Shown in pieces: positions 8,466 to 27,680 of a stretch of DNA of 27,775 bases. Source of the DNA: a virus; IMG/VR virus record IMGVR_UViG_3300025120_013088, positions 1 to 27,775 of that record; one strand, given 5' to 3'. The translations under genes and the position numbers were made by a program. The notes under the pieces are model-generated. The model did not search any database. It saw nothing but the letters and a program-made list of their open reading frames with translations, and was not told the origin of the DNA. Positions within the stretch are counted from its first letter, which is position 1, and every line of letters begins with the position of its first letter.

Positions 8466-10004
8466 TTATAAATCAAAGCTGTTACTATTGTAGTCAATTT
8501 GTAAACGCCCTCTTTTTAATAATCCACCCATTGTTAATACCATGCTGTCAACAGCATCATCATGTGTTGAATGACCGAAATTTAAAAGCTCATCTTCTAG
8601 CACATTCCATTTTCGCCATTTATTCCATATAACCTTTTTGTGCTCATACAAACCAAGCACACCACGTAGTCTTGCTAACTTATCTCCTTTGAATCCTTTG
8701 ACTGGTGAAACAGTAAGGTTATGCAACGCTCGATTCTCATGCATTACTCTTTTGAAGTCACCTTCAAATGAGTTCTGATAAGCAACAGCTTCTGGCCATA
8801 TAATACATGGTGACATTGTTGGAAAATATTGACCTTCGTCATTTTCAAGCAGGATGTTCCAATCGGCCAACATCTCACATAGTGCATCCATTTTTTCAAG
8901 GTTGCCTAATGTACGAGCTCTTTTCTGGTCAATCAAATAGATCTTACCTTCTTTAATACCACCGAGTGTCATTACGGTCCAATCATTCTTCTCCCGTAAT
9001 CCAGCACTTAAATCAATTCCTACACCAAGGCAATCATAATCTTCTGGTATCTCGCCTTTAATAATTAACTCTGGTGATATTCCAACATCCGTTGACTGTA
9101 CAGCTGTATTTAAGTATTGATATGCAAAGGCAACTCGATCTTCTAGTTTACGCTCATTCAAGTATTTCATTGACCAAAACTCAGGCCAATATGAACGTTG
9201 TCTACCTTCAGCGTCTGTGATTACAGCCTTTTGAACTATCTGTTTCCAATTATTTTTGGGCAGAAATAAGGTGGCGTGTATATCGTTGAAGTGGAAGCGG
9301 GTTCCCAAACAGATAGCCCGTGCACCTTGGAACATCGTTGGTGCGATAACGTTAGACCACGTCTGCTCCATCTCACGGCGAATATCTGGGTTGTTGATCG
9401 AAGCGGCAGATTTGATAGGGTCATCAATAAGCACCAACTGTGATCGTTTAGAGGTGATTGCGCCTTTGAGACCACCACACGCAATTGTGAAAGCTTCTTC
9501 GCCTGCTGTATCAATCCCTGCAAATTCATAATCAATTGACCAATATTCATCTGAACGTTTAACTTTGGAGAGCCTTACCATTGGGAAAATCTCTCTGTAT
9601 ATCTTACTAGTTAATATTCCTTTAATTGTTGCTGATTTGGCTCGACTAATATCAACCATATAGGCAATATATAGTATACGTAACATCTGCTTGGCAGCTG
9701 CATGTCGCCCAATCATCCATGCTGCAAATAAACCAAGGACAGTACTCTTTGCAGAACCACGAGGGGCCAATATTGATGTGTTTTGCCCAGCTACTCCTAA
9801 TAGACACTCAGAATCTTCACCTGTACAAAGCTCTGTATGCCACTCCAGCATATGCTTTGCAGGGCATTTCCCCATTGCTTTGCAGAAGTCTTGGAAATTA
9901 TCTCTAGCTTTGAGAACGCTCTCACTTGGTGGTTTGACAGTAACCTTTGTTGCTGTCATTAATGCTGATCGTTTATAAGCTAGTGCAATACTTGATACTG
10001 CCAT
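8466..10004 (-). CDS. terL: Terminase large subunit (DNA packaging ATPase-nuclease)
   Basis: This 512-residue enzyme translocates DNA into the prohead and cuts the concatemer. The ATPase domain has a Walker A-like motif APRGSAKST at about 80-88, a Walker B LVLIDDP at about 190-196, and a coupling motif CLGTRFHFND at about 232-241. The RNase H-like nuclease domain has its first acidic residue in GVGIDLSAG (about D331), a WPEAVAYQ segment with E405, and a final HDDAVDS at about 481-487. Length and motif order fit large terminases of T7-like phages. It follows a probable small terminase and an unknown 112-residue protein. The start ATG has only a weak AAAGAG upstream. Confidence 0.95.
   Translation of the reverse strand: MAVSSIALAYKRSALMTATKVTVKPPSESVLKARDNFQDFCKAMGKCPAKHMLEWHTELCTGEDSECLLGVAGQNTSILAPRGSAKSTVLGLFAAWMIGRHAAAKQMLRILYIAYMVDISRAKSATIKGILTSKIYREIFPMVRLSKVKRSDEYWSIDYEFAGIDTAGEEAFTIACGGLKGAITSKRSQLVLIDDPIKSAASINNPDIRREMEQTWSNVIAPTMFQGARAICLGTRFHFNDIHATLFLPKNNWKQIVQKAVITDAEGRQRSYWPEFWSMKYLNERKLEDRVAFAYQYLNTAVQSTDVGISPELIIKGEIPEDYDCLGVGIDLSAGLREKNDWTVMTLGGIKEGKIYLIDQKRARTLGNLEKMDALCEMLADWNILLENDEGQYFPTMSPCIIWPEAVAYQNSFEGDFKRVMHENRALHNLTVSPVKGFKGDKLARLRGVLGLYEHKKVIWNKWRKWNVLEDELLNFGHSTHDDAVDSMVLTMGGLLKRGRLQIDYNSNSFDL
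8487..8492 (-). promoter_or_regulatory. Candidate -10 element TACAAT (followed by AG) inside terminase 3' end
   Basis: The minus strand reads GACTACAATAGTAACAGC, 29 nt before the ATG at 8457. It lies in coding sequence (Asp-Tyr-Asn-Ser), so a chance match is possible. Confidence 0.3.
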
Positions 10005-10366: not shown

Positions 10367-10902
10367 TAGTTTGAAGTTAACTCACTATAAATTTTTGCCC
10401 AAACTGCATTCATTGCATTATCAATTGGTTCTGAAAACTGTGGATCATCCTTAAAGATTGCTGTTATCTCTCGCATGACACGATCAGCTCCAGCCATGAT
10501 TAATCCTCGTTTATCTGTTGTTCGATTCATTCTTTCAGAAGTTTCAATATGAGATCTAAGTTCTTTTTCAAGTGCTGCCAAACGTGCAGCGCCATCGGAC
10601 CCTTTGATTTCACCGGAGGTCACTGCCATTCGCAGCTCCTGTATATCGGAGTGTAGAGCAGCAATTTCACTATTCAGAATTTCACGACGATTCAGTTTCT
10701 TAAATTTCATCTTGATCCAACGGCTTAAATCGTTGAAAGATCCTGTATAGCCAATGATTCCTGCATATACCCAAATTTCAATTACAGAAGGAGTTACTTC
10801 AGCAAATTCTCTGAAGTCTTCTGCCTCTGATGCAGGGAGCTTATCTAGCCATTGATCTACAACTGTTAGATAAACTTTTCCAGTTTTAATTTGAGTATTC
10901 AT
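10366..10902 (-). CDS. Probable terminase small subunit
   Basis: The product has 178 residues. An N-terminal helical segment (about 30-70, with VTPSVIEIWVYAGIIGYTGS) could be a helix-turn-helix DNA-binding domain. A long coiled coil follows (about 70-125, SEIAALHSDIQELRMAV and LAALEKELRSHIETSERM), then a C-terminal helical domain. DNA-binding domain plus coiled-coil oligomerisation is the usual plan of small terminases, and the gene lies one small gene upstream of the large terminase. Starts and stops at both ends overlap neighbours as TAATG. The call is inference from architecture and place. Confidence 0.5.
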   Translation of the reverse strand: MNTQIKTGKVYLTVVDQWLDKLPASEAEDFREFAEVTPSVIEIWVYAGIIGYTGSFNDLSRWIKMKFKKLNRREILNSEIAALHSDIQELRMAVTSGEIKGSDGAARLAALEKELRSHIETSERMNRTTDKRGLIMAGADRVMREITAIFKDDPQFSEPIDNAMNAVWAKIYSELTSN

Positions 10903-12311
10903 TAGGCTGCTCTTGCAAGACTACGAGCACGGGCAGATTGACGATTTGATTTAGTAGCAGTGATTAGATCCTCTTCTCTCATTGTCTTACGAGTATCATC
11001 TCCCTGTGCACCAATAGTCGTCCGATCTTCCCCTGCTTGTTTACCAATGGTGTCTCTAGTTTCTGTTCCTTGTTTGCCAATTGTAGAACGATCCTCCCCT
11101 CCTTGAGTTCCAATAGTTCTTCTTTCTTCTGTACCTTGTTGAATTAACTTGTTAATGTCTACAGTACCTTGTGATTCGATATTTTGTTTTTCTCTATCTG
11201 CTTGTAAGGATTCTTGTGCCTTAATAGCATCTGTGGTGTTTGTACCTTGTAGAGCAAGATTAGCGAGCTCACGTGCTGCTTGATACCTTTCCTGTTCTGC
11301 AATATTTTGTCTTTCTTGATATCCTGCAGCATCAATGTTTGCTTTTTCACGAGCAGCTTGTTGTGTTTCTTGTTCTTGAATTTTAGATACATCAACATCC
11401 CCCTGTGCACCAATTTTTTCTACATCAACATCACCTTGATCACCAATTAATCCACTATCAATATCACCCTGACCTACTATCCTGCGAAGATCCTCTGTTG
11501 CTTGCTGCGTCATACTCTTACGAGTATCATCTCCCTGTGTACCAATAGTCTTCCTATCTTCAGCTGCTTGATCAGCTAATGTTTTTCTAGTCTCTGTTCC
11601 TTGTGTGCCAATAGTTGTCCTATCTTCACCTGCTTGATCACGTAATGTTAATCTAGTCTGTGTTCCTTGTGTACCAATTGTATCTCTTTCCTCTGAACCT
11701 TGTTTGCCTATTTTGCTAATATCTACAGCACCTTGGGTATTAATAGCTGCTCTATCTTGGGTTCCTTGTAATCCAATCTTACTTAGATCTACATTACCTT
11801 GAGCCCCAATATTTGCCCTATCTTGCGTTCCTTGTGCTCCAAGATTTAACCTAGTTTGCTGTCCTTGAGCTCCAATATTTTGTCTTGTTTGTTCACCCTG
11901 TACAATATTGGCCTTTGCAGTTTCATTCCCTTGAGATACTATATTCATCCTATCTTGTTGACCAGTCGCGGCTAACATTCCTAAGTCACGTGCATTTTGT
12001 TGCCCGGCAGCAATGTTTTGCAGTTGCTGCTGCTGCACCATCATCAAGCCACTTTTAACAAATTGATCTGCTCTTGCTTGGCTTGCTCCTTGGCGCTCCA
12101 ACCTTGCCTGTTCTTGCATCATCTCCTTACTTAGTAAGGCCTGCTCTGCACCCATTTTGCTAGCGAGCTCAGAGTCATACCCAGAGCTAACCATATCAGC
12201 AGCTACGCCTAATTTATATGATCTGCCTTCACTATCAGTCTCAGTAGGCGACAGCTGCATGAACTCCCGCATGATGTCATTAAAATTAAAATTTCCAGGA
12301 TCTACAGCCAT
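10902..12311 (-). CDS. 11-residue-repeat structural protein
   Basis: This 469-residue protein is dominated, from about residue 120 to 445, by roughly 29 units of an 11-residue repeat with consensus G-x-Q-G-(T/D)-x-(T/D)-R-x-x-I. Examples are GAQGTQDRANI, GTQGTETRKTL and GDQGDVDVEKI. Three units near the middle are 15 residues long (for example QEQETQQAAREKANI and KAQESLQADREKQNI). Periods of 11 and 15 fit right-handed or nearly straight coiled coils, although the glycine in each unit also allows a solenoid. The N-terminal 120 residues are Gln/Met/Ala-rich and the C-terminus is basic. A long rod in the virion, fibre or injected complex is likely. It is the first minus-strand gene after the inverted lysozyme gene. 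Confidence 0.7.
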   Translation of the reverse strand: MAVDPGNFNFNDIMREFMQLSPTETDSEGRSYKLGVAADMVSSGYDSELASKMGAEQALLSKEMMQEQARLERQGASQARADQFVKSGLMMVQQQQLQNIAAGQQNARDLGMLAATGQQDRMNIVSQGNETAKANIVQGEQTRQNIGAQGQQTRLNLGAQGTQDRANIGAQGNVDLSKIGLQGTQDRAAINTQGAVDISKIGKQGSEERDTIGTQGTQTRLTLRDQAGEDRTTIGTQGTETRKTLADQAAEDRKTIGTQGDDTRKSMTQQATEDLRRIVGQGDIDSGLIGDQGDVDVEKIGAQGDVDVSKIQEQETQQAAREKANIDAAGYQERQNIAEQERYQAARELANLALQGTNTTDAIKAQESLQADREKQNIESQGTVDINKLIQQGTEERRTIGTQGGEDRSTIGKQGTETRDTIGKQAGEDRTTIGAQGDDTRKTMREEDLITATKSNRQSARARSLARAA

Positions 12312-21752: not shown

Positions 21753-21770
21753 ATGATTCCTTCGGATCAT
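21753..21770. other. Small hairpin with UUC-type loop
   Basis: ATGAT-T-CC, loop TTC, then GG-ATCAT: seven pairs with one bulged T. It lies upstream of the structural block, at the edge of the non-coding region. Role unknown. Confidence 0.3.
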
Positions 21771-21885
21771 AGGAAACAAGCAGCGTGATCTTGCGCATAT
21801 ATCAGTTAACACAGCCTGTAGAGATATGGAGCTTACTATTATGTGGAAATTAACAAATATGTATGGCGTTGAGTCGCACTAAAAA

Positions 21886-21976
21886 CGCTATATGTGGCGT
21901 AATTTCTGAAATAATTTTATATATGATTTATCACGTCTAAACCATGGCAATTTGGGGTATATAAAACCGCTATATG
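21886..21976. repeat. Two copies of CGCTATATG
   Basis: Perfect 9-bp copies at 21886-21894 and 21968-21976, 82 bp apart, in an AT-rich stretch. They could be binding sites for a phage protein. Confidence 0.4.
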
Positions 21977-22000
21977 ACCGGAAAAATGCTGCATCGCGAT

Positions 22001-22012
22001 TTAGACGTCTAA
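22001..22012. repeat. Perfect 12-bp palindrome TTAGACGTCTAA
   Basis: A fully self-complementary 12-mer. The half-site ACGTCTAA also occurs at 21933-21940. A dimeric regulator or initiator site is plausible. Confidence 0.45.
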
Positions 22013-22067
22013 TCCCCTCTGTACCCGAACTTGTGGTGGAACAAAAAAAATAGACTGCAATAGCTAA

Positions 22068-22085
22068 CGCTCGCTTCGCTCGCTT
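22068..22085. repeat. Tandem 9-bp repeat CGCTCGCTT x2
   Basis: Two perfect head-to-tail copies at the start of the TGCTTCG-repeat stretch. Confidence 0.5.
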
Positions 22086-22099
22086 GTACTGAAGTTACC

Positions 22100-22171
22100 T
22101 GCTTCGTTGCAACGTAAGAGAGCAACAGTTGCCTGCTTCGATTGAATGTAACTTAAGTTGCTTCGATTGAA
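22100..22171. repeat. Iteron-like TGCTTCG repeats
   Basis: TGCTTCG occurs at 22100, 22134 and 22159. The last two copies extend to a shared 13-mer, TGCTTCGATTGAA. Spacings are 34 and 25 bp. Confidence 0.45.
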
Positions 22172-22262
22172 AGCAATTGCTGTATTGAAACGTTAGTTGT
22201 TTCAAATGTTTTTAACTTAAGTTCTGGTTTCAGGGATTCTTTTACGCAAGTTAACTTAAGTA
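22150..22262. repeat. AACTTAAGTT palindromes
   Basis: The 10-bp palindrome AACTTAAGTT occurs at 22150-22159 and 22214-22223, and a one-mismatch copy (AACTTAAGTA) at 22253-22262. Related partial copies (TTAAGTTACTT) follow near 22283. Protein-binding sites or origin elements are possible. Confidence 0.5.
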
Positions 22263-22310
22263 ATCTTTATGTCTCTTTACATTTAAGTTACTTATGTTTA
22301 TTACTTGCGT

Positions 22311-22332
22311 ATCACTTCAGATATCACTTCAG
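22311..22332. repeat. Near-tandem direct repeat ATCACTTCAG x2
   Basis: Perfect 10-bp copies at 22311-22320 and 22323-22332, separated by 2 bp. Confidence 0.45.
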
Positions 22333-22389
22333 CTTCTCCAATTACTTCCCTTGGTTGAAGCGTTCGTGATTATCTTATGTGTATTCTTT

Positions 22390-22441
22390 GGTTACACCTG
22401 TCTCATCTATTGTTCATACCCGATGTGCCTTGGTTGTAACC
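22390..22441. repeat. 7-bp inverted repeat GGTTACA / TGTAACC
   Basis: Arms at 22390-22396 and 22435-22441 enclose 38 nt, just before the first terminator hairpin of the small-gene block. Confidence 0.35.
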
Positions 22442-22448
22442 ACTAATC

Positions 22449-22471
22449 CCACACTGTTGTGTGGTCTTTTT
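22449..22471 (+). terminator. Terminator hairpin 1 of the small-gene block
   Basis: CCACAC, loop TGTT, GTGTGG, then TCTTTTTA. It precedes the first small gene and suggests transcription arrives from upstream. Confidence 0.65.
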
Positions 22472-22494
22472 ATTTACGTTCTTATATATTCACT

Positions 22495-22644
22495 ATGAAC
22501 TTCCTTGCGAAGATTGCAATCGTTTGCATCATCGGCGGTCTCACTCCGTTCATCCTTGCTCCCTTCGGAGTTCCCCCCATCATCATCTTTGGTGGGATCT
22601 TCTGTCTCTCCTTTACCTTCGGTTACTTCGATCGTATTAGCTGA
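22495..22644 (+). CDS. Small two-helix membrane protein
   Basis: The product has 49 residues. Almost all of it is hydrophobic: FLAKIAIVCIIGGLTPFIL, then a VPP turn, then IIIFGGIFCLSFTFGYF, so two transmembrane helices are likely. I chose the ATG at 22495 because it follows the hairpin-plus-leader arrangement seen before the other genes here (CGTTCTTATATATTCACT then ATG); an earlier in-frame ATG at 22459 lies inside the terminator. Function is unknown. Confidence 0.6.
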   Translation: MNFLAKIAIVCIIGGLTPFILAPFGVPPIIIFGGIFCLSFTFGYFDRIS

Positions 22645-22652
22645 TGTTTATT

Positions 22653-22672
22653 CCCCGCTGTCGCGGGGTTTA
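22653..22672 (+). terminator. Terminator hairpin 2
   Basis: CCCCGC, loop TGTC, GCGGGG, then TTTA. Confidence 0.7.
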
Positions 22673-22689
22673 TTTCACTGTGTTCTTTA

Positions 22690-22702
22690 CATCATCATGA
22701 TG
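22690..22702 (+). promoter_or_regulatory. Start-codon inverted repeat CATCAT-C-ATGATG
   Basis: The two potential start codons (ATGATG) are complementary to the preceding CATCAT. This lies at the end of the conserved leader CACTGTGTTCTTTA. An identical copy is at 22961-22973. Confidence 0.45.
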
Positions 22703-22912
22703 TTCACTGTTGAACTAACTGACGCGATCTGTGTCTACGTTCCTGAGAACAGCCTTGCTGATACTCAGTACGTGCATTTCTATCTCCATGAAATGGACGA
22801 CGCGACTACATGTGCCGGACGACTGCAGGATCTTTATCCTGAAGTATTAGTAAAGATCTTCGAGCGTGCAACTTCAGTTGAACGTATTGAAGACGAACGT
22901 TCTCTTCGTTGA
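22697..22912 (+). CDS. Small hypothetical protein, MFTV family
   Basis: The product has 71 residues, starts MMFTVELTDAICVYVP and is acidic. The start follows the conserved hairpin and leader, and upstream extensions run through the terminator and were dropped. The N-terminal MFTV-x-(L/F) strand recurs in the products at 22968 and 24171, and more weakly at 24358. No Shine-Dalgarno sequence is present. Function is unknown; small host-takeover proteins are common in such phage regions. Confidence 0.6.
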   Translation: MMFTVELTDAICVYVPENSLADTQYVHFYLHEMDDATTCAGRLQDLYPEVLVKIFERATSVERIEDERSLR

Positions 22913-22923
22913 ACCAACACTAG

Positions 22924-22944
22924 CCCGTCTATCGACGGGTTTAT
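22924..22944 (+). terminator. Terminator hairpin 3
   Basis: CCCGTC, loop TATC, GACGGG, then TTTATTTC. The stem differs from its neighbours at paired positions. Confidence 0.7.
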
Positions 22945-22947
22945 TTC

Positions 22948-22981
22948 ACTGTGTTCTTTACATCATCATGATGTTCACAGT
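22948..22981 (+). promoter_or_regulatory. Leader and start-codon hairpin
   Basis: ACTGTG (22948-22953) pairs with CACAGT (22976-22981), and inside it CATCAT pairs with ATGATG (22961-22973). The start codons thus lie within nested inverted repeats. The leader is identical over about 33 nt to the one before 22697. Confidence 0.5.
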
Positions 22982-23144
22982 TACTTACTTCGAAGGTATT
23001 GCTGATGACTGTAGTCTCAACACTACAACTCTGACATGCAGATCCTATCAAGACGCAAAGGATTTACTCAAGTCCTTTGAACCTTGGGAAGAAGTTCGCC
23101 TCGACTACGTAGGCACTCCATCAGAGGACATGCTGCCCTTCTGA
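22968..23144 (+). CDS. Small hypothetical protein, MFTV family
   Basis: The product has 58 residues. It starts MMFTVTYFEGIADDC and has a probable helix (SYQDAKDLLKSFE) followed by a strand (EVRLDYVG), so a beta-alpha-beta plan is likely. The leader and first codons match those of 22697, which suggests the two genes arose by duplication of the cassette. Function is unknown. Confidence 0.6.
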   Translation: MMFTVTYFEGIADDCSLNTTTLTCRSYQDAKDLLKSFEPWEEVRLDYVGTPSEDMLPF

Positions 23145-23158
23145 TTACTTACGTATTA

Positions 23159-23178
23159 CCGCGCTGTCGCGCGGTTTT
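23159..23178 (+). terminator. Terminator hairpin 4
   Basis: CCGCGC, loop TGTC, GCGCGG, then TTTTAC. Confidence 0.7.
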
Positions 23179-23210
23179 ACTTTCTGTGTTCAATTTCACT
23201 TTGTTTCATT

Positions 23211-23534
23211 ATGTCTATCAAATCGCTGACCACTTCTACCGAGTCTGCCCAGAATGTTTCTGGTGCTGTCGGTTCTGAGCTGTTCAACAAGAACACCATG
23301 ACCACTGCCGGTGTATGCATCGGACTTGGTACTGGTGTTGCTTCACTTGCTCTCGTTTCAGCTGCTCTGCCTATGCAAATGGCTACCTTCACTGGCCTTT
23401 CCGCTGGTCTCCTATACATGGGTGACCGTCAGGATAAGGGCATTGGTCTTAACCCATTTGCTGGCAAAGATGCTCCCTCTACTGACTCTGCCAAGACTGC
23501 TAAGTCTGCAGACGTAGTAGTAGTAGCTGCTTGA
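23211..23534 (+). CDS. Small protein with two glycine-rich membrane segments
   Basis: The product has 107 residues. Residues about 31-50 (TAGVCIGLGTGVASLALVSA) and 56-70 (MATFTGLSAGLLYMG) look like two membrane helices. The flanks are polar, and the C-terminus is Lys/Asp/Ala-rich. The leader is a divergent version of the conserved type (CTGTGTTCAATTTCAC). Codon use looks richer in C-ending codons than in the structural block, suggesting high expression. Function is unknown. Confidence 0.6.
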   Translation: MSIKSLTTSTESAQNVSGAVGSELFNKNTMTTAGVCIGLGTGVASLALVSAALPMQMATFTGLSAGLLYMGDRQDKGIGLNPFAGKDAPSTDSAKTAKSADVVVVAA

Positions 23535-23541
23535 TCACTCT

Positions 23542-23565
23542 CCCCCCTTTTCAGGGGGGTTTTTT
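23542..23565 (+). terminator. Terminator hairpin 5
   Basis: CCCCCC, loop TTTTCA, GGGGGG, then TTTTTTC: a textbook intrinsic terminator. Confidence 0.8.
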
Positions 23566-23595
23566 CATTGTGCCTTTAACTTCAGTTACACAATG
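23566..23595 (+). promoter_or_regulatory. Start-codon hairpin CATTGTG...CACAATG
   Basis: Perfect 7-bp arms (23566-23572 and 23589-23595) around a 16-nt loop. The right arm ends in the start codon of the next gene. The left arm begins directly after the terminator U-tract. Confidence 0.6.
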
Positions 23596-23877
23596 ACAAA
23601 TCTCGCAATCGTTAGTAAGTCCACCAAGCACGGCATTAGCGTGTGGCGCTTCATTCAAACCGAGGACGGCAAGTTCTTTGCCTTCGGTGGATGTACGCCT
23701 GCTTGTAAGGAGTTCACCTCCTTGGACGAGCTACGTACTTGCTATAAGAACTGGATTTCTTACGGCTATCAACCAGGACTAGTTCCTGCGAAAGCTAAGA
23801 AGTCCACTCCCCTATCTGATCCTTGGGCATCTCAGTTACCTGTATCTATGCAGAAAGAACTGGAGTGCCTCAAGTGA
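23593..23877 (+). CDS. Small hypothetical protein
   Basis: The product has 94 residues and starts MTNLAIVSKSTKHGISVWRF. The segment FFAFGGCTPACKEFTSLDEL has two cysteines, and a helix (about 40-54) follows. It is a mixed alpha/beta small protein with no recognised family. The start codon lies in the perfect inverted repeat at 23566-23595. There is no Shine-Dalgarno sequence. Confidence 0.6.
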   Translation: MTNLAIVSKSTKHGISVWRFIQTEDGKFFAFGGCTPACKEFTSLDELRTCYKNWISYGYQPGLVPAKAKKSTPLSDPWASQLPVSMQKELECLK

Positions 23878-23885
23878 TCTCCCTA

Positions 23886-23908
23886 CCCCGTTTTCACGGG
23901 GTTTTTTT
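23886..23908 (+). terminator. Terminator hairpin 6
   Basis: CCCCGT, loop TTTC, ACGGGG, then TTTTTTTC. Confidence 0.8.
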
Positions 23909-23936
23909 CATTGTGTTCTTTATTAAATTCACAATG
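23909..23936 (+). promoter_or_regulatory. Start-codon hairpin CATTGTG...CACAATG
   Basis: The same 7-bp arms as at 23566-23595 (here 23909-23915 and 23930-23936), with a 14-nt loop holding TTCTTT. The right arm ends in the start codon at 23934. Confidence 0.6.
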
Positions 23937-24116
23937 ACTATTAATCCCTACATCTCACAGATCTGCGAGCAGACTGGTGCTTCCGAACGTGAGGTTATCA
24001 CTTCGATGATGCCCTCGTTATGTGTTCGGACCTACCCATGCGTTATCCATGGTCGTCGGTTCGAAACTCACGATGACTATATGAATGAGATACATGAGTA
24101 CCTTTCAGGACTCTAA
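23934..24116 (+). CDS. Small hypothetical protein
   Basis: The product has 60 residues. The first half looks like a small helical bundle (YISQICEQTGASEREVITSM), the second half is short strands and a helix (THDDYMNEIHEYL). The first half could be a helix-turn-helix-like unit, but this is weak. The start is fixed by the leader hairpin at 23909; longer readings run through the terminator. Confidence 0.55.
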   Translation: MTINPYISQICEQTGASEREVITSMMPSLCVRTYPCVIHGRRFETHDDYMNEIHEYLSGL

Positions 24117-24122
24117 CTTCCT

Positions 24123-24142
24123 CCCCGCTGTCGCGGGGTTTA
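24123..24142 (+). terminator. Terminator hairpin 7
   Basis: CCCCGC, loop TGTC, GCGGGG, then TTTACC. Confidence 0.65.
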
Positions 24143-24170
24143 CCTCACTGTGTTCTCATACATTCACACT

Positions 24171-24299
24171 ATGTTCACCATTGAATTCGTTAAGCCTTAT
24201 ACCCAAGGTGTTACTCAGCAATCCTTCCGTTCACGCAGTGAAGCGGAGAACATGATTGCTTTCTACGCCACATGTGGTGTACGTGCTCACTTTGTATAA
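24171..24299 (+). CDS. Very small MFTI-family protein
   Basis: The product has 42 residues: a first strand MFTIEFVKPY, a helix around SRSEAENMIAFYATCG, and a final strand RAHFV. It shares the MFT(V/I)-x-(L/F) start and the strand-helix-strand plan with 22968. It follows terminator 7 and the leader CACTGTGTTCTCATACATTCACACT. The regular spacing is the main support for such a short gene. Confidence 0.55.
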   Translation: MFTIEFVKPYTQGVTQQSFRSRSEAENMIAFYATCGVRAHFV

Positions 24300-24307
24300 C
24301 TGCTTAT

Positions 24308-24328
24308 CCCCGCTGTCGCGGGGTTTTC
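24308..24328 (+). terminator. Terminator hairpin 8
   Basis: CCCCGC, loop TGTC, GCGGGG, then TTTTC. Confidence 0.7.
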
Positions 24329-24329
24329 T

Positions 24330-24370
24330 CATACATGTCCTTCGCTTTCTTAAGCACATGTTCATGTATG
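24330..24370 (+). promoter_or_regulatory. Start-region inverted repeat CATACATG...CATGTATG
   Basis: Perfect 8-bp arms at 24330-24337 and 24363-24370. The right arm covers the in-frame ATG at 24364. The arms differ in sequence from the CATTGTG type but have the same placement. Confidence 0.5.
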
Positions 24371-24540
24371 AACTCGTTGAAGAGAACCCCCAGTGGGGCC
24401 TTGGGTCACTTATTGGTGTCTCCGAGTATTCAAATCGTGAATCTAATCAACTCGATTGTTCCTATTACCAGGAGTATCTTTTAAAGAACTCCGGGGTACC
24501 CGATAGGATCCAAACGGTTGATGTCTATCGCGCTGTCTGA
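24358..24540 (+). CDS. Small hypothetical protein
   Basis: The product has 60 residues from the ATG at 24358 (MFMYELVEENPQWGLGSLIG), or 58 from the ATG at 24364. It is acidic with no membrane segment. The start resembles the MFTV group. The longer upstream reading runs through the terminator. Function is unknown. Confidence 0.55.
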   Translation: MFMYELVEENPQWGLGSLIGVSEYSNRESNQLDCSYYQEYLLKNSGVPDRIQTVDVYRAV

Positions 24541-24549
24541 GATCCCCTA

Positions 24550-24573
24550 CCCTCGCTATCGCGGGGGTTTTTT
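24550..24573 (+). terminator. Terminator hairpin 9
   Basis: CCCTCGC, loop TATC, GCGGGGG (with one G-U pair), then TTTTTTA. Confidence 0.75.
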
Positions 24574-24581
24574 ATTGTTTC

Positions 24582-24587
24582 TACAAT
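24582..24587 (+). promoter_or_regulatory. Candidate -10 element TACAAT (followed by AG) for the metalloprotease
   Basis: TTTCTACAATAGGAATAC, directly after terminator 9 and 25 nt before the GTG at 24613. It is the only site of this type in the small-gene block and links this gene to the regulation of the structural genes. Confidence 0.5.
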
Positions 24588-24612
24588 AGGAATACTATAT
24601 ACATTGTTGACT

Positions 24613-25320
24613 GTGAAAATATCACCCCGCGTAGCTAAAGTACTTGAGTACGCAACAATGTTAGACCCTGTACGTGCATACGCAGGTGTCGAACTTGGTG
24701 GTACTACTCCTAACAAACGTAGTGCCAAGCGTGCTCTTACTCGCCTTGACAAAGGCATGGACAAACAGGTTGACGCTATGAAAGCTGGCGCATCTGTACC
24801 TGTTAATTATGTACAACATGTACCACCTGGTGATACTCGTTTGCAAACCTCTGTAGCGGCTGCTGCAGATCCTTTGACATACATGAGTAGCTCACCTGCT
24901 GGTGCTGATCCCACTATTCACTTCAACCCCCACTCTGACCGTGCCTACCTTGCCCACGAAATGGGGCATCTGGCCTCTCAACAGTCTGACGTCGGTCAAC
25001 TTATTGCTGCTCTTAGGGCTAATCCAAAGCTTGCTACGGCCCTCGGTGCTGCAATGTTTGCCGCCCCTGCTGTTGCTTCTGCGGTAGAGGTTGGTGACGA
25101 TGACCTCGACACCTCCATCGCCCTCGCCGCCCTGGCCTCTGCCCCCACGCTTGCTGACGAAGCTCTCGCCACCCGTCAGGGCTTAGCCATCATGGATAAG
25201 GCAGGTATGCGGGCTACTCTCGGCCAACGTGGCAAATTGGCTGGTGGCCTTATGTCTTACTTAGCTGCCCCCATCCTTGCTGCATCCCTTGGTAATGCTG
25301 TCGGCAACCAATTGGACTAA
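24613..25320 (+). CDS. HExxH zinc metalloprotease-like protein with hydrophobic segments
   Basis: This 235-residue protein carries the zinc-binding motif HEMGH in AYLAHEMGHLASQQ at about 112-125, with the two histidines as ligands and the glutamate as catalytic base. A possible third ligand is the Glu of LADEALATRQGLAIM near residue 183, placed as in M48-like gluzincins. Hydrophobic stretches lie at about 141-159 (TALGAAMFAAPAVASA) and near the C-terminus (GGLMSYLAAPILAASLGNAV). The start is not clear: a TTG at 24604 is in frame, but GTG 24613 fits the promoter spacing. The carrier of a TACAAT-type promoter among small genes, it may act late, for example in virion maturation or on host membrane proteins. 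Exact family not certain. Confidence 0.7.
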   Translation: MKISPRVAKVLEYATMLDPVRAYAGVELGGTTPNKRSAKRALTRLDKGMDKQVDAMKAGASVPVNYVQHVPPGDTRLQTSVAAAADPLTYMSSSPAGADPTIHFNPHSDRAYLAHEMGHLASQQSDVGQLIAALRANPKLATALGAAMFAAPAVASAVEVGDDDLDTSIALAALASAPTLADEALATRQGLAIMDKAGMRATLGQRGKLAGGLMSYLAAPILAASLGNAVGNQLD

Positions 25321-25353
25321 TGTTGGCACATTAAGCAATAATTAAGACCTCTT

Positions 25354-25369
25354 GCCGTCTGTCAACGGC
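25354..25369 (+). terminator. Hairpin 10 (weak terminator)
   Basis: GCCGT, loop CTGTCA, ACGGC, then a poor T-tract (TTCCATCTT). It keeps the conserved TGTC loop core. Confidence 0.5.
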
Positions 25370-25399
25370 TTCCATCTTCCGTGTCCTTAACACTGAAGA

Positions 25400-25519
25400 A
25401 TGATCCTTCTAATCTTCACGTTCCTCACTGTAGCTTTCAACTTTGAAGCTCCTCAGGGTGGAATCGTATTGCTCCCCTTCCTAGCTGATAAGCGGGAGTT
25501 ATCCATACTTGTTTTATAA
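25400..25519 (+). CDS. Very small hydrophobic protein
   Basis: The product has 39 residues (MILLIFTFLTVAFNFEAPQG, then a second hydrophobic part). The N-terminus could be a membrane helix or signal anchor. It is preceded by hairpin 10 and a leader GTGTCCTTAACACTGAAGA, which matches the conserved type. It is too short for a family assignment. Confidence 0.45.
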   Translation: MILLIFTFLTVAFNFEAPQGGIVLLPFLADKRELSILVL

Positions 25520-25524
25520 CTCCC

Positions 25525-25656
25525 ATGAAGCTATCTAAATTGCCTAAACTTTTGACTAAAGCTCAGAACTGTAGCTCTCGTAAAGAAGCTCAAAAGATTC
25601 TCAAGAAGGCATCCAAACTTACCTCTAAAAAGACCACTACTCTATTAACTAAATGA
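25525..25656 (+). CDS. Small basic protein
   Basis: The product has 43 residues and is very Lys- and Ser/Thr-rich (KLPKLLTKAQNCSSRKEAQK). It could bind nucleic acid. Its stop overlaps the next start as ATGA. It has no hairpin or leader of its own; it follows 25400-25519 by 5 nt, so these genes seem to form a mini-operon. Confidence 0.45.
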   Translation: MKLSKLPKLLTKAQNCSSRKEAQKILKKASKLTSKKTTTLLTK

Positions 25657-25778
25657 TTACTTGGACCAACTCTTCCATCATCCTCGCTGTCGTAGGAATG
25701 ATTGGACTATTCAGCACTCTGACCGTCCTCACGTATTCCTTTAAACGGAATCGTAACTACAACGGTAGGTATCAATAA
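25653..25778 (+). CDS. Small single-span membrane protein
   Basis: The product has 41 residues with one transmembrane helix (SIILAVVGMIGLFSTLTVLT at about 8-27) and a basic, Asn-rich cytoplasmic tail (FKRNRNYNGRYQ). The ATGA overlap with 25525-25656 supports it as a coupled gene. The topology resembles small holin-like or host-membrane modifying proteins, but nothing specific can be said. Confidence 0.5.
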   Translation: MITWTNSSIILAVVGMIGLFSTLTVLTYSFKRNRNYNGRYQ

Positions 25779-25798
25779 TCCTCACACTGTGGGTAACC

Positions 25799-25888
25799 AT
25801 GAATACATTCGATAAGTTCACTGTGTCAGTAATCGTACTCCTCCTAGGCGTACTGTGTGTAACCGTCAAAATGACTACGCCGATTTAA
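25799..25888 (+). CDS. Very small single-span membrane protein
   Basis: The product has 29 residues, with a hydrophobic core VSVIVLLLGVLCVTV. It is the last of four tiny genes in a row. Support is limited to the open frame, hydrophobic pattern and spacing. Confidence 0.35.
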   Translation: MNTFDKFTVSVIVLLLGVLCVTVKMTTPI

Positions 25889-25909
25889 TATCCTTACTCT
25901 GTACGGACA

Positions 25910-25929
25910 TACTGTCAATTATTGCAGTA
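25910..25929. promoter_or_regulatory. Dyad TACTG-t-CAAT-t-ATTG-CAGTA
   Basis: Nine paired positions around a central T, with one unpaired T. It lies upstream of 26002-26250, in the largest gap of the small-gene block. It looks like an operator or a hairpin; a second small hairpin (CCGAC, loop TAC, GTCGG) follows at 25934-25946. Confidence 0.4.
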
Positions 25930-25981
25930 TTATCCGACTACGTCGGGCACCCTATTTTTCATAAAGTAGGGGGGTCGGTTA

Positions 25982-25989
25982 TATAAATA
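25982..25989 (+). promoter_or_regulatory. TATAAATA element with nearby AGGAGG
   Basis: TATAAATA at 25982-25989 lies 12 nt before the ATG at 26002; AGGAGG at 25993-25998 has only 3 nt spacing to the ATG. This gene alone in the block has a good Shine-Dalgarno sequence. Confidence 0.35.
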
Positions 25990-26001
25990 AGCAGGAGGCA
26001 T

Positions 26002-26250
26002 ATGTACTCATTATTCGACACATTTGATCTAATCTCACGGCCCTCTGTATATGTCATTAGTGACTCACAGTTGGCCGCCTATAAACAATCGCAGACTAAG
26101 GCTGAGATTGCTGAATTGAATAAGCTCATTGACGGTCATAACCAAGCAATTGAGCGTCTTACAGAAACCCGTGATCTGTTACAAGCAGATCTACAGAAAC
26201 TAGAACCTTCATCTACCACTACTACTACTAAGAACAATGTCAAAGACTAA
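26002..26250 (+). CDS. Small coiled-coil protein
   Basis: The product has 82 residues. The N-terminus is hydrophobic and aromatic (MYSLFDTFDLISRPSVYVIS); residues about 28-68 form a coiled coil (KAEIAELNKLIDGHNQAIER, LTETRDLLQADLQKLE); the tail is Ser/Thr/Asn-rich. The start is well supported by AGGAGG. It overlaps the next gene by 14 nt. The family is not recognised. Confidence 0.6.
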   Translation: MYSLFDTFDLISRPSVYVISDSQLAAYKQSQTKAEIAELNKLIDGHNQAIERLTETRDLLQADLQKLEPSSTTTTTKNNVKD

Positions 26251-26365
26251 ATCTACTAACTCTCTACTCTCAACTACCTCTGGCCGTAAAACTACTAAAC
26301 AAGGCCAAGGTAAGAACAGCCGTCCTAAAGGCAATCGTAAAATGATGCGAGGACAGGGTAAGTAA
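26237..26365 (+). CDS. Small basic protein
   Basis: The product has 42 residues, rich in Lys, Arg, Gly and Gln (TSGRKTTKQGQGKNSRPKGN). It starts inside the end of 26002-26250, in another frame, and ends just before terminator 11. A nucleic-acid-binding role is possible from charge alone. No Shine-Dalgarno sequence is obvious. Confidence 0.45.
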   Translation: MSKTKSTNSLLSTTSGRKTTKQGQGKNSRPKGNRKMMRGQGK

Positions 26366-26372
26366 ACCTAAT

Positions 26373-26394
26373 ACCGGGCTGTCACCCGGTTTTA
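26373..26394 (+). terminator. Terminator hairpin 11
   Basis: ACCGGG, loop CTGTCA, CCCGGT, then TTTA. Confidence 0.65.
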
Positions 26395-26420
26395 TAACTA
26401 ATGTCCTTTGACTTACATAA

Positions 26421-26531
26421 ATGACACCAGTTGAAATCCGCGCAGCTCATCGTATGCAAGCAGCAATACTGCGGCAGAAACGTGAGCAGCACCGTGATCA
26501 AACACAGAATCTGTATAAAGCAGAAGCATGA
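26421..26531 (+). CDS. Very small helical protein
   Basis: The product has 36 residues, probably one amphipathic helix (EIRAAHRMQAAILRQKREQH). It sits between terminators 11 and 12, after the leader AATGTCCTTTGACTTACATAA. The cassette arrangement supports it as a gene. Confidence 0.5.
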   Translation: MTPVEIRAAHRMQAAILRQKREQHRDQTQNLYKAEA

Positions 26532-26537
26532 TCAATC

Positions 26538-26560
26538 GCCACCTGTCGGTGGCTTTTTTT
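26538..26560 (+). terminator. Terminator hairpin 12
   Basis: GCCACC, loop TGTC, GGTGGC, then TTTTTTTA. Confidence 0.8.
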
Positions 26561-26572
26561 ATCAATGTCCTT

Positions 26573-26587
26573 TGGAATAATTCCATG
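26573..26587 (+). promoter_or_regulatory. Start-codon inverted repeat TGGAA-TAA-TTCCA
   Basis: A 5-bp hairpin whose right arm shares its last base with the ATG at 26585. It follows the leader AATGTCCTTT. Confidence 0.4.
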
Positions 26588-26824
26588 ACTATCATCAGCA
26601 CTAAGCCTCAACAGAATATTGATACTGTTGATGGCTCTTTTGTACCAGCTGATGTACAACTCAAGTCATTCCCTCCCCTTGATGACACAATCGTGTTCAT
26701 CAAAGAGATTGATTGGGCTGAGGTTGGCCAACGATGCCGTGGTGGCATCAATAATGTTGGCCTTGTCGTAGCCGTATGTGGCGAGAAGCTATACACCTTT
26801 GGTGAGTTTCTAGCCAAGGTTTGA
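26585..26824 (+). CDS. Small hypothetical protein
   Basis: The product has 79 residues. A C-terminal part (DDTIVFIKEIDWAEVGQRCR, then VGLVVAVCGEKLYTFGEFL) looks like a small alpha/beta domain. The start was chosen after the leader; the longer reading (from 26528) includes the terminator. Function is unknown. Confidence 0.6.
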   Translation: MTIISTKPQQNIDTVDGSFVPADVQLKSFPPLDDTIVFIKEIDWAEVGQRCRGGINNVGLVVAVCGEKLYTFGEFLAKV

Positions 26825-26831
26825 ACACAAT

Positions 26832-26856
26832 CCCCGCTTGTCTGCGGGGTTTTTTT
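26832..26856 (+). terminator. Terminator hairpin 13
   Basis: CCCCGC, loop TTGTCT, GCGGGG, then TTTTTTTC. Confidence 0.8.
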
Positions 26857-26880
26857 CTCGTGTTCTTCAACATCTCGTCT

Positions 26881-27090
26881 ATGAGCATCACTTACGACTT
26901 CACCATTGTTGCCGATGCAATCCCTGGTATCTCGTTAGTGTTAGCTCAGAATGAAGATGCCTTCAGCTACCTCTACGAGGAAATGGATATGACTATTCTT
27001 CAGAATGGTTGTTCTCCACTTGATACAGATAAAGTCGGTGACTTTATTAACGACGCTGAGTGGGCACATATGGCCTGCAGCTACGTCTGA
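26881..27090 (+). CDS. Small acidic hypothetical protein
   Basis: The product has 69 residues and is acidic. The start reads MSITYDFTIVADAIPGISLV, then a helix-rich region (NEDAFSYLYEEMDMTI) and DKVGDFINDAEWAHM. The start was set by the leader TCGTGTTCTTCAACATCTCGTCT; longer readings cross the terminator. Function is unknown. Confidence 0.6.
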   Translation: MSITYDFTIVADAIPGISLVLAQNEDAFSYLYEEMDMTILQNGCSPLDTDKVGDFINDAEWAHMACSYV

Positions 27091-27113
27091 GTTAACTCTA
27101 TATCTCACATCAC

Positions 27114-27138
27114 AAGCCGCTTGATCGCGGCTTTCTTT
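27114..27138 (+). terminator. Terminator hairpin 14
   Basis: AAGCCGC, loop TTGATC, GCGGCTT, then TCTTTTT. Confidence 0.75.
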
Positions 27139-27161
27139 TTATGTACTCTTTGAATGATTAC

Positions 27162-27680
27162 ATGAACGCTATTGCTTCAACTCACTACGTAGGAATACAC
27201 CGTAAGTCTCCATCTAAACAACGCATCGTACATGCGTTTGATTTAGACGACACTATTACTATCAAGCCACCTAAATTTAACAACGTAGGCATGACCAAAG
27301 ACGAGTTCTTTGATGCCTCAAGGTCATTTAAACCAGATGACCGTGTTGTTGATCTTTTACGGATGATGCATCAGTGGGGTGATTCCATCGCTATATGCAC
27401 TGCCCGTCCATCGGACAGGCTCACTGAATCCTATAACTGGCTTCGCAAGTGGTCCATTCCATTCGATTGCATACTTGTGTCCACTGGTGTGGACAACAGC
27501 GGTAATACCAAGCAGCACATGCTTCAGTATTTACGCAAGCAATATCGTATGGTTGGTACCCTTATTGATGACAGTCCTTACAACATTGAAGGTGCACGCC
27601 TTCAAAGGATCAAGCGGATCCATGTTCTCAAGAATTGTGCCTACTGGGACTCTCATCCCGAAGTTGTAACCAAGATCTAA
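27162..27680 (+). CDS. HAD-superfamily phosphatase / nucleotidase-like protein
   Basis: The product has 172 residues from the ATG at 27162; an in-frame ATG at 27141 adds seven. I prefer 27162 because 27141 falls in the stretch that aligns with the conserved leader (ATGTACTCTTTGAATGATTAC). HAD motif I is FDLDDTIT near residue 26-33 (nucleophile Asp and acid/base Asp two residues on), motif II is CTARPSDRL near 87-95, and the late acidic motif is LIDDSPYNI near 145. The fold is that of polynucleotide 3'-phosphatases and 5'(3')-nucleotidases. The substrate cannot be told from sequence; nucleotide or DNA end metabolism is likely. Confidence 0.8.
   Translation: MNAIASTHYVGIHRKSPSKQRIVHAFDLDDTITIKPPKFNNVGMTKDEFFDASRSFKPDDRVVDLLRMMHQWGDSIAICTARPSDRLTESYNWLRKWSIPFDCILVSTGVDNSGNTKQHMLQYLRKQYRMVGTLIDDSPYNIEGARLQRIKRIHVLKNCAYWDSHPEVVTKI

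Follow-up and report, generated by a model that had tools for sequence, protein, structure and literature searches.

The question raised by the 27,775-nucleotide stretch of viral DNA analysed here (IMG/VR record IMGVR_UViG_3300025120_013088, positions 1 to 27,775; the window) is what is done by the element that recurs between the small genes at 22,449 to 27,161, in which a GC-rich hairpin with a T-rich tail is followed by a leader, R-TGTTCTTT (R, a purine), and then by a start codon. Comparison with related phage contigs gives about an even chance that this unit is a two-part gene junction acting in the transcript, whose hairpin would close one gene and whose leader would open the next, the genes being portable cassettes. 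All of the evidence is comparative; the gene calls were mechanical, and the start codons were inferred. All fourteen hairpins listed in the first-pass annotation of this DNA were present on the + strand, with the stems that it had named. It had placed the leader after about twelve of them; the leader or a variant of it (ACGTTCTTA to GTGTTCTTT, ATGTCCTTT, GTACTCTTT) was found 8-11 nt past the stem in 13 of the 14 units, and the hairpin at 24549 was followed by the late-type promoter TACAATAG instead. The repeated order of hairpin, leader and small open reading frame (ORF) was also found as described, but the statement that each hairpin follows a short gene did not hold for unit 1. The fourteen junctions are as follows.

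22449..22495, + strand, unit 1: hairpin 22449-22464; leader ACGTTCTTA 22476-22484; start codon 22495; after about 700 nt without a conserved gene
22653..22697, + strand, unit 2: hairpin 22653-22668; leader GTGTTCTTT 22680-22688; start codon 22697; 51 bits with covariance model R1 (see below)
22924..22968, + strand, unit 3: hairpin 22924-22939; leader GTGTTCTTT 22951-22959; start codon 22968, within a second stem (ACTGTG/CACAGT and ACATCA/TGATGT; fold z -4.7)
23159..23211, + strand, unit 4: hairpin 23159-23174; variant leader GTGTTCAAT 23186-23194; start codon 23211
23542..23593, + strand, unit 5: hairpin 23542-23559; leader GTGCCTTTA 23570-23578; start codon 23593, within a CATTGTG/CACAATG stem (fold z -4.9)
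23886..23934, + strand, unit 6: hairpin 23886-23901; leader GTGTTCTTT 23913-23921; start codon 23934, within a CATTGTG/CACAATG stem (fold z -6.5)
24123..24171, + strand, unit 7: hairpin 24123-24138; leader GTGTTCTCA 24150-24158; start codon 24171
24308..24358, + strand, unit 8: hairpin 24308-24323; leader ATGTCCTTC 24335-24343; start codon 24358; with TCATACATG/CATGTATGA as a further inverted repeat
24549..24606, + strand, unit 9, the exception: hairpin 24549-24568; no leader; late-type -10 TACAATAG from 24582; then a 238-aa ORF listed from TTG 24604
25354..25400, + strand, unit 10: hairpin 25354-25369; leader GTGTCCTTA 25381-25389; start codon 25400
26374..26421, + strand, unit 11: hairpin 26374-26389; leader ATGTCCTTT 26401-26409; start codon 26421
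26538..26585, + strand, unit 12: hairpin 26538-26553; leader ATGTCCTTT 26565-26573; start codon 26585; small GGAAT/ATTCC stem beside the start codon
26832..26881, + strand, unit 13: hairpin 26832-26849; leader GTGTTCTTC 26860-26868; start codon 26881
27116..27162, + strand, unit 14: hairpin 27116-27131; leader GTACTCTTT 27143-27151; start codon 27162; precedes a HAD/polynucleotide-kinase-like gene, most orthologues of which keep the GTACTCTTT variant

Between 21.7 and 27.8 kb, 16 terminator-like sites were found, compared with 4.7 (sd 2.1) in dinucleotide shuffles. The sequence TGTTCTTT alone was not enriched in the window (50 matches at no more than one mismatch versus 44 expected), so the signal is the combined unit of hairpin and leader, and it was tested as a combination. 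A covariance search of related phages had been named beforehand as the test that could overturn the first-pass description, and its outcome was strongly positive. Model R1, built from 13 window units and run against the relative contigs, revealed the unit in every contig that reached the array region, with about 10-22 units in most of them, and none in Synechococcus phage S-EIV1. An independent detector found 163 units in 15 contigs, always on a single strand per contig, and none in 8 shuffled sequences or in S-EIV1. Contigs without units are those in which the terminase gene lies less than about 12.5 kb from the contig end, so that the array is not reached; in contig G007 a single unit was found at the very end. 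An exact-pattern scan of viral contigs matched 12 contigs, five of which were single chance matches without a hairpin, the rest belonging to the lineage. Four of six host genomes contained no match to the unit, and the other two contained one weak match each. The array region of the window showed no nucleotide match among deposited phages, no Rfam family and no tRNA, and no description of the unit was found in the literature searched, which left out most subscription journals. Since many of the units came from closely related contigs, the statistics were repeated on distinct or reduced sets.

The anatomy of the unit was analysed in 144 distinct units across the relatives of the window. The order was constant: a stop codon, 5-11 nt, a 6-bp stem with a 4-nt loop, a T-rich stretch of 11 nt, R-TGTTCTTT and the start codon. 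The loop had 4 nt in 128 of these units, with a mean hairpin energy of -9.9 kcal/mol, and the gap between hairpin and leader was exactly 11 nt in 136. The stop codon lay 5-11 nt before the hairpin in 86/128 units, and the R lay 20-23 nt before the start codon in 82/134. In the leader, purine-T-G at positions 28-30 was followed by YYCTTT around the conserved core RTGTTCTTT, position 31 was only T or C, and R was a purine in 138/144 units. The loop sequence was less constant: TGTC, which had been given as the usual loop, was present in 8 of the 14 window hairpins and is peculiar to the window phage, the loops of the relatives being TATC or TAAC. The T tail occurred on one side only (5.6 T in the 8 nt after the hairpin, no A tract before it), and a GC-rich hairpin with a one-sided T tract is the sequence pattern of an intrinsic terminator.

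The stems covaried strongly. Pairing was kept in 97.9% of the cells, with 127 double-changed cells compared with 35.5 after shuffling, and the covariation score was 0.94, compared with 0.22 after shuffling and 0.10-0.16 when the register was slid. This pattern indicates that the stem is under selection for pairing rather than for sequence. Since the set had been picked for pairing, the test was reversed and started from the leader alone: among 94 distinct occurrences of RTGTYCTTT anywhere in the contigs, 62 were preceded by at least 5 of 6 Watson-Crick pairs in the exact register, compared with 0-4 in other registers. The linkage was obligate between genes, where the leader occurred without a hairpin in only 2 cases compared with about 75 in units (about 75/77 linked). 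The stretch from the leader to the early codons also folded more stably than expected, with a minimum free energy of -3.67 compared with -2.17 (sd 0.12) after shuffling, and the leader paired with the start region of its own gene better than with those of permuted partners (-5.18 versus -4.47, sd 0.20). A weaker second hairpin around the start codon, absent from the first-pass annotation, was found in many units and was clear in window units 3, 5 and 6. Pairing of an upstream AACACA with the leader was just 2.3 sd above permutation and is not claimed.

The absence of a Shine-Dalgarno sequence, stated in the first-pass annotation, was borne out in the relatives, where such a sequence preceded 1/91 unit genes compared with 49/547 other same-strand genes and 141/614 opposite-strand genes. 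The view that the gap holds no ordinary promoter also stood: -10-like hexamers (TATAAT-like) were depleted in the units (2.99 versus 3.68, sd 0.09, shuffled), and a sigma-70 promoter in the unit was rejected on this ground. A MotA-like box was rejected since the unit consensus shows no -10 where such a box would require one. Base pairing between the leader and 16S rRNA was rejected as well, because neither AAAGAACA nor AAAGGACA occurs in host 16S, where only AAGAACA was found at one place. The late genes on the other strand show a recognisable signal. There, TACAATAG was followed by an A 12 nt from its first base in 95% of cases, which makes the pair a good candidate for a -10 box and start site, with the A 17-23 nt before the start codon. 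The TACAATAG motif lies 29-35 nt ahead of start codons, on the - strand of the window for example upstream of 1311, 3173, 6987, 8457 and 20496, and also at 24582 (+); in 12 contigs, TACAATA had 100 copies on the late strand compared with 50 on the array strand. A single class of late promoter can thus be recognised in the phage, and the array genes rely on a different signal. Terminator hairpins with a TACAATA late promoter immediately after them were also seen in contig G002 at 12.3 kb, in G003 at 65.5 kb and in the window at 24.55 kb, and they form a second type of composite junction in these phages.

The idea of mobile or duplicating cassettes, raised in the first-pass annotation, agreed with the gene content of the relatives. 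Contigs G008 and G005, whose flanks are 96.9% and 98.8% identical, differ by an extra 235-bp piece in G008 that consists of a unit and one gene and is bounded by a 51-bp perfect direct repeat, which begins slightly upstream of the stop codon and extends through the leader. A second single-cassette difference, an insertion or deletion of family FAM12 between G002 and G021, also ends in a unit. The early part of the array is permuted, with families 3, 9 and 0 in differing orders across the relatives, and the later part is stable (families 5, 7, 4, 6, 2, 1 and 8). The spacers of two units were more alike when the downstream gene was shared (0.38) than when the upstream gene (0.22) or neither (0.25) was shared, and hairpin similarity tracked neither neighbour strongly (0.62 and 0.59). 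The spacer and start travel with the downstream gene, and each gene family tends to have a leader variant and spacer of its own. The HAD gene family keeps the leader GTACTCTTT or GTACTCTTA in 7/8 orthologues, and in family FAM5 the leader and spacer are mostly ATGTCCTTTGG..CCATGAC. The HAD gene of G025 has a TACAATA promoter where that of G022 has a unit, and in both contigs the gene stands between the same families 2 and 1.

The window is a genome fragment from an uncultivated lineage of marine phages of Prochlorococcus/Synechococcus. Its large terminase subunit (8466-10004, - strand) is 55% identical to that of S-EIV1, the sole near phage among the deposited ones in the terminase comparison, and 88-98% identical to the best 80 of 229 IMG/VR loci. 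The structural genes lie on the - strand, including a structural-type protein (10902-12311, -) with long G-Q-G-T/D repeats (IGTQG-type). The array, which is of early type, lies on the + strand past the following region.

21755..22448, no strand, divergent region, mostly non-coding, flanked by the late operon (-) and the array (+), with unit 1 at its end

Counterparts of this region with similar repeats precede the first unit in several relatives. Its non-coding part at 21800-22448 holds many repeated dyads (AACTTAAGTT, CTTCGATTGAA), the relatives keep a conserved GGTGGAACAAAAAAAATA, and it is a possible origin or early promoter region. A complete cyanobacterial-type sigma factor gene (1345-2286, -), about 60% identical to its nearest cellular relatives in Prochlorococcus/Synechococcus, was matched in all lineage contigs but one and was not found in S-EIV1; its product is probably the reader of the late promoter. 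Copies of this gene at 98% and 77% identity were seen in L194 (PACT01000002.1) and L195 (NZVR01000054.1), binned as Crocinitomicaceae and Blastopirellula, which are probably phage contigs misbinned in those metagenome-assembled genomes. In the 106-kb record G020 (IMGVR_UViG_3300050343_000255), the array appears at 14-21 kb and again at 95-102 kb, about 80.8 kb apart, probably because the assembly exceeds one genome or merges two variants.

In the reading that we prefer, the GC-rich hairpin with its T-rich tail just past the stop codon would form or protect the 3′ end of the preceding gene as a partial intrinsic terminator. The leader R-TGTTCTTT would be the start signal of the next gene, a sequence-specific 5′-untranslated element in place of a Shine-Dalgarno sequence, and in many genes the small stem enclosing the start codon may make initiation conditional. 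A role of the leader in translation or in the 5′ untranslated region (UTR) would fit its steady spacing from the start codon, the lack of both a Shine-Dalgarno sequence and a -10 box, and the start-codon stem. The genes would be self-contained cassettes because each brings its spacer and start at one end and its hairpin at the other, and we infer that recombination within the shared unit may insert, delete and permute them. Several observations weigh against this reading. The T tract is frequently interrupted at positions 4-5, so that the hairpins may terminate only weakly, and a succession of about 20 strong terminators would shut off the distal genes. The start-codon stem is confined to part of the units. 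The leader is not unusually single-stranded (0.46 unpaired versus 0.56 shuffled), which counts against a simple S1 landing pad, and the exchange of a TACAATA promoter for a unit between G025 and G022 would also fit a promoter role for the unit.

Such a role is possible but rather unlikely. The unit would then be a composite terminator and promoter, similar to the promoter early stem-loops (PeSLs) of other phages, in which the hairpin ends the upstream transcript, the T tract and leader serve a phage-modified or phage-sigma RNA polymerase as its early promoter, and R is the transcription start of a 20-23-nt 5′ UTR. The near-constant purine at R fits this scheme, the late TACAATA promoters with their inferred +1 A give 5′ UTRs of about 17-23 nt that resemble the distance from R to the start codon, TACAATA replaces the leader in window unit 9 as in G025, and the sigma factor is present in nearly all lineage members covering its region and not in S-EIV1. 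The depletion of -10-like hexamers speaks against it, covariation of the stem is unexpected for a double-stranded promoter, and the scanned G002 genes matched no family of single-subunit RNA polymerases (for PHROGs, among the first 25 families listed), for which reason an N4-type hairpin promoter was rejected too. An antitermination relay, with the leader as a boxA-like RNA site that recruits NusB/S10 and lets the polymerase read through the next hairpin, each unit renewing the modification, is quite unlikely. No clear boxA was found in the host rRNA leaders, and the host internal transcribed spacer element GAACCTTGACAAC, which we take to be the host boxA, does not match the leader. The fixed distances to the hairpin and the start codon would be left unexplained as well. 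The relay gains from the length of the terminator run, which needs some read-through, and from the fact that a boxA-like site shortly upstream of a start codon can control translation (suhB). The leader core GTTCTTTA, with only T or C at position 31, also fits the gamma-proteobacterial boxA consensus GYTCTTTAANA (PMC5725501).

That the units are primarily recombination sites with little role in expression, maintained for cassette exchange either as homology arms or in the form of folded single strands (attC- or REP-like, after repetitive extragenic palindromes), is very unlikely. The 51-bp repeat around the single-gene insertion in G008, the FAM12 difference ending in a unit and the permuted gene order are what it would lead one to expect. 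The stems of neighbouring units in one genome differ and would make poor homology arms, the T tail and the spacing to stop and start codons point to expression, and the unit also precedes conserved genes of stable order. Pfam comparison of 89 G002 proteins, which cover most of its genes of 90 aa or longer, matched no integrase or transposase family and no integron integrase or other tyrosine recombinase, and an attC or REP-type mobile element was rejected on the basis of these scanned genes. Short upstream reading frames, in which RTG would start a small peptide whose stop overlaps the next ATG, are almost certainly not the explanation. RTG is present in most units and an ATGA overlap in window units 2, 3, 5, 11 and 12, but over 152 units the frames were inconsistent (64/44/44), with overlapping stops in 31 and A after ATG in 74, and this candidate was rejected. 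A wider proposal, which we hold tentatively and consider unlikely, would make the unit a new class of gene-start signal: a hairpin exactly 11 nt from a boxA-like leader would restart or re-license RNA polymerase after each gene in a terminate-and-continue relay, pairing of the leader with the start codon would act as a second gate, and the same module would be the point of cassette exchange.

Plastic small-gene regions are where phages gain and lose genes, and these junctions show how a newcomer could be expressed at once. Each gene is equipped with putative start and end signals of its own, which follow a strict format, and it is at this format that insertions fall. That genes have been inserted and reordered precisely at these elements suggests a “kit” with which small genes could be exchanged while their on and off signals are kept. 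If the leader is indeed a start signal independent of both Shine-Dalgarno and sigma-70, it would represent a new mode of gene expression in picocyanobacteria and a useful engineering part. In uncultivated phages, the unit also offers a reliable marker by which very small genes can be called.

Several known systems resemble the unit in part. Integron gene cassettes are small same-orientation genes parted by attC palindromes of variable sequence and conserved structure. The array shares the same-orientation small genes and the structure-conserved palindromes between them; it differs in that no integrase was found in the scanned G002 genes, no GTTRRRY core is present, and a T tail and leader are. 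The PeSLs of T4-type phages were reportedly described by Arbiol in 2010 and Comeau in 2014. As far as they are described in citing papers (PMC4503421, PMC3950731), they are likewise repeated composite stem-loop junctions between genes, dense in a plastic small-gene region and tied to modular shuffling, but they carry a sigma-70-type early promoter, whereas in the units the -10 boxes are depleted and a leader stands there instead, at a fixed distance from hairpin and start codon. The S-PM2 paper noted few PeSL-like loops in that cyanophage and doubted their role there. In haloarchaeal virus HGTV-1, a conserved motif with an inverted repeat precedes most ORFs of one genome arm, and shuffling was proposed; that motif contains an archaeal TATA-like promoter and belongs to another host domain (PMC3950731). 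The boxA/nut sites (PMC5725501, PMC4807359) share with the leader the core GYTCTTTA, and rRNA antitermination leaders also combine boxB, boxA and boxC, but the element read as the host boxA differs, and here the spacing to hairpin and start codon is strict, with one site per gene. The start-associated sequence (SAS) and extended SAS (ESAS) of cluster K mycobacteriophages, which the first-pass annotation had proposed as the nearest analogy, place a conserved sequence at a fixed position before the starts of many non-structural genes that are unrelated to one another; about half of the copies have an inverted repeat upstream, and the sequence keeps one orientation and is virtually absent from the host (PMC3203893). 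The analogy holds, although the T4-type PeSLs are at least as near. The SAS is the 13-bp GGGATAGGAGCCC with a Shine-Dalgarno core AGGAG 3-7 nt before the start, whereas a Shine-Dalgarno-like sequence was seen in 1/91 unit genes and their conserved core RTGTTCTTT lies 20-23 nt before the start, and the ESAS inverted repeats do not covary as RNA, whereas the stems here covary strongly, as RNA or single strand. Since SAS/ESAS differs from the unit in its Shine-Dalgarno core and the PeSL in its sigma-70 promoter, the unit works like these systems and is not a member of either.

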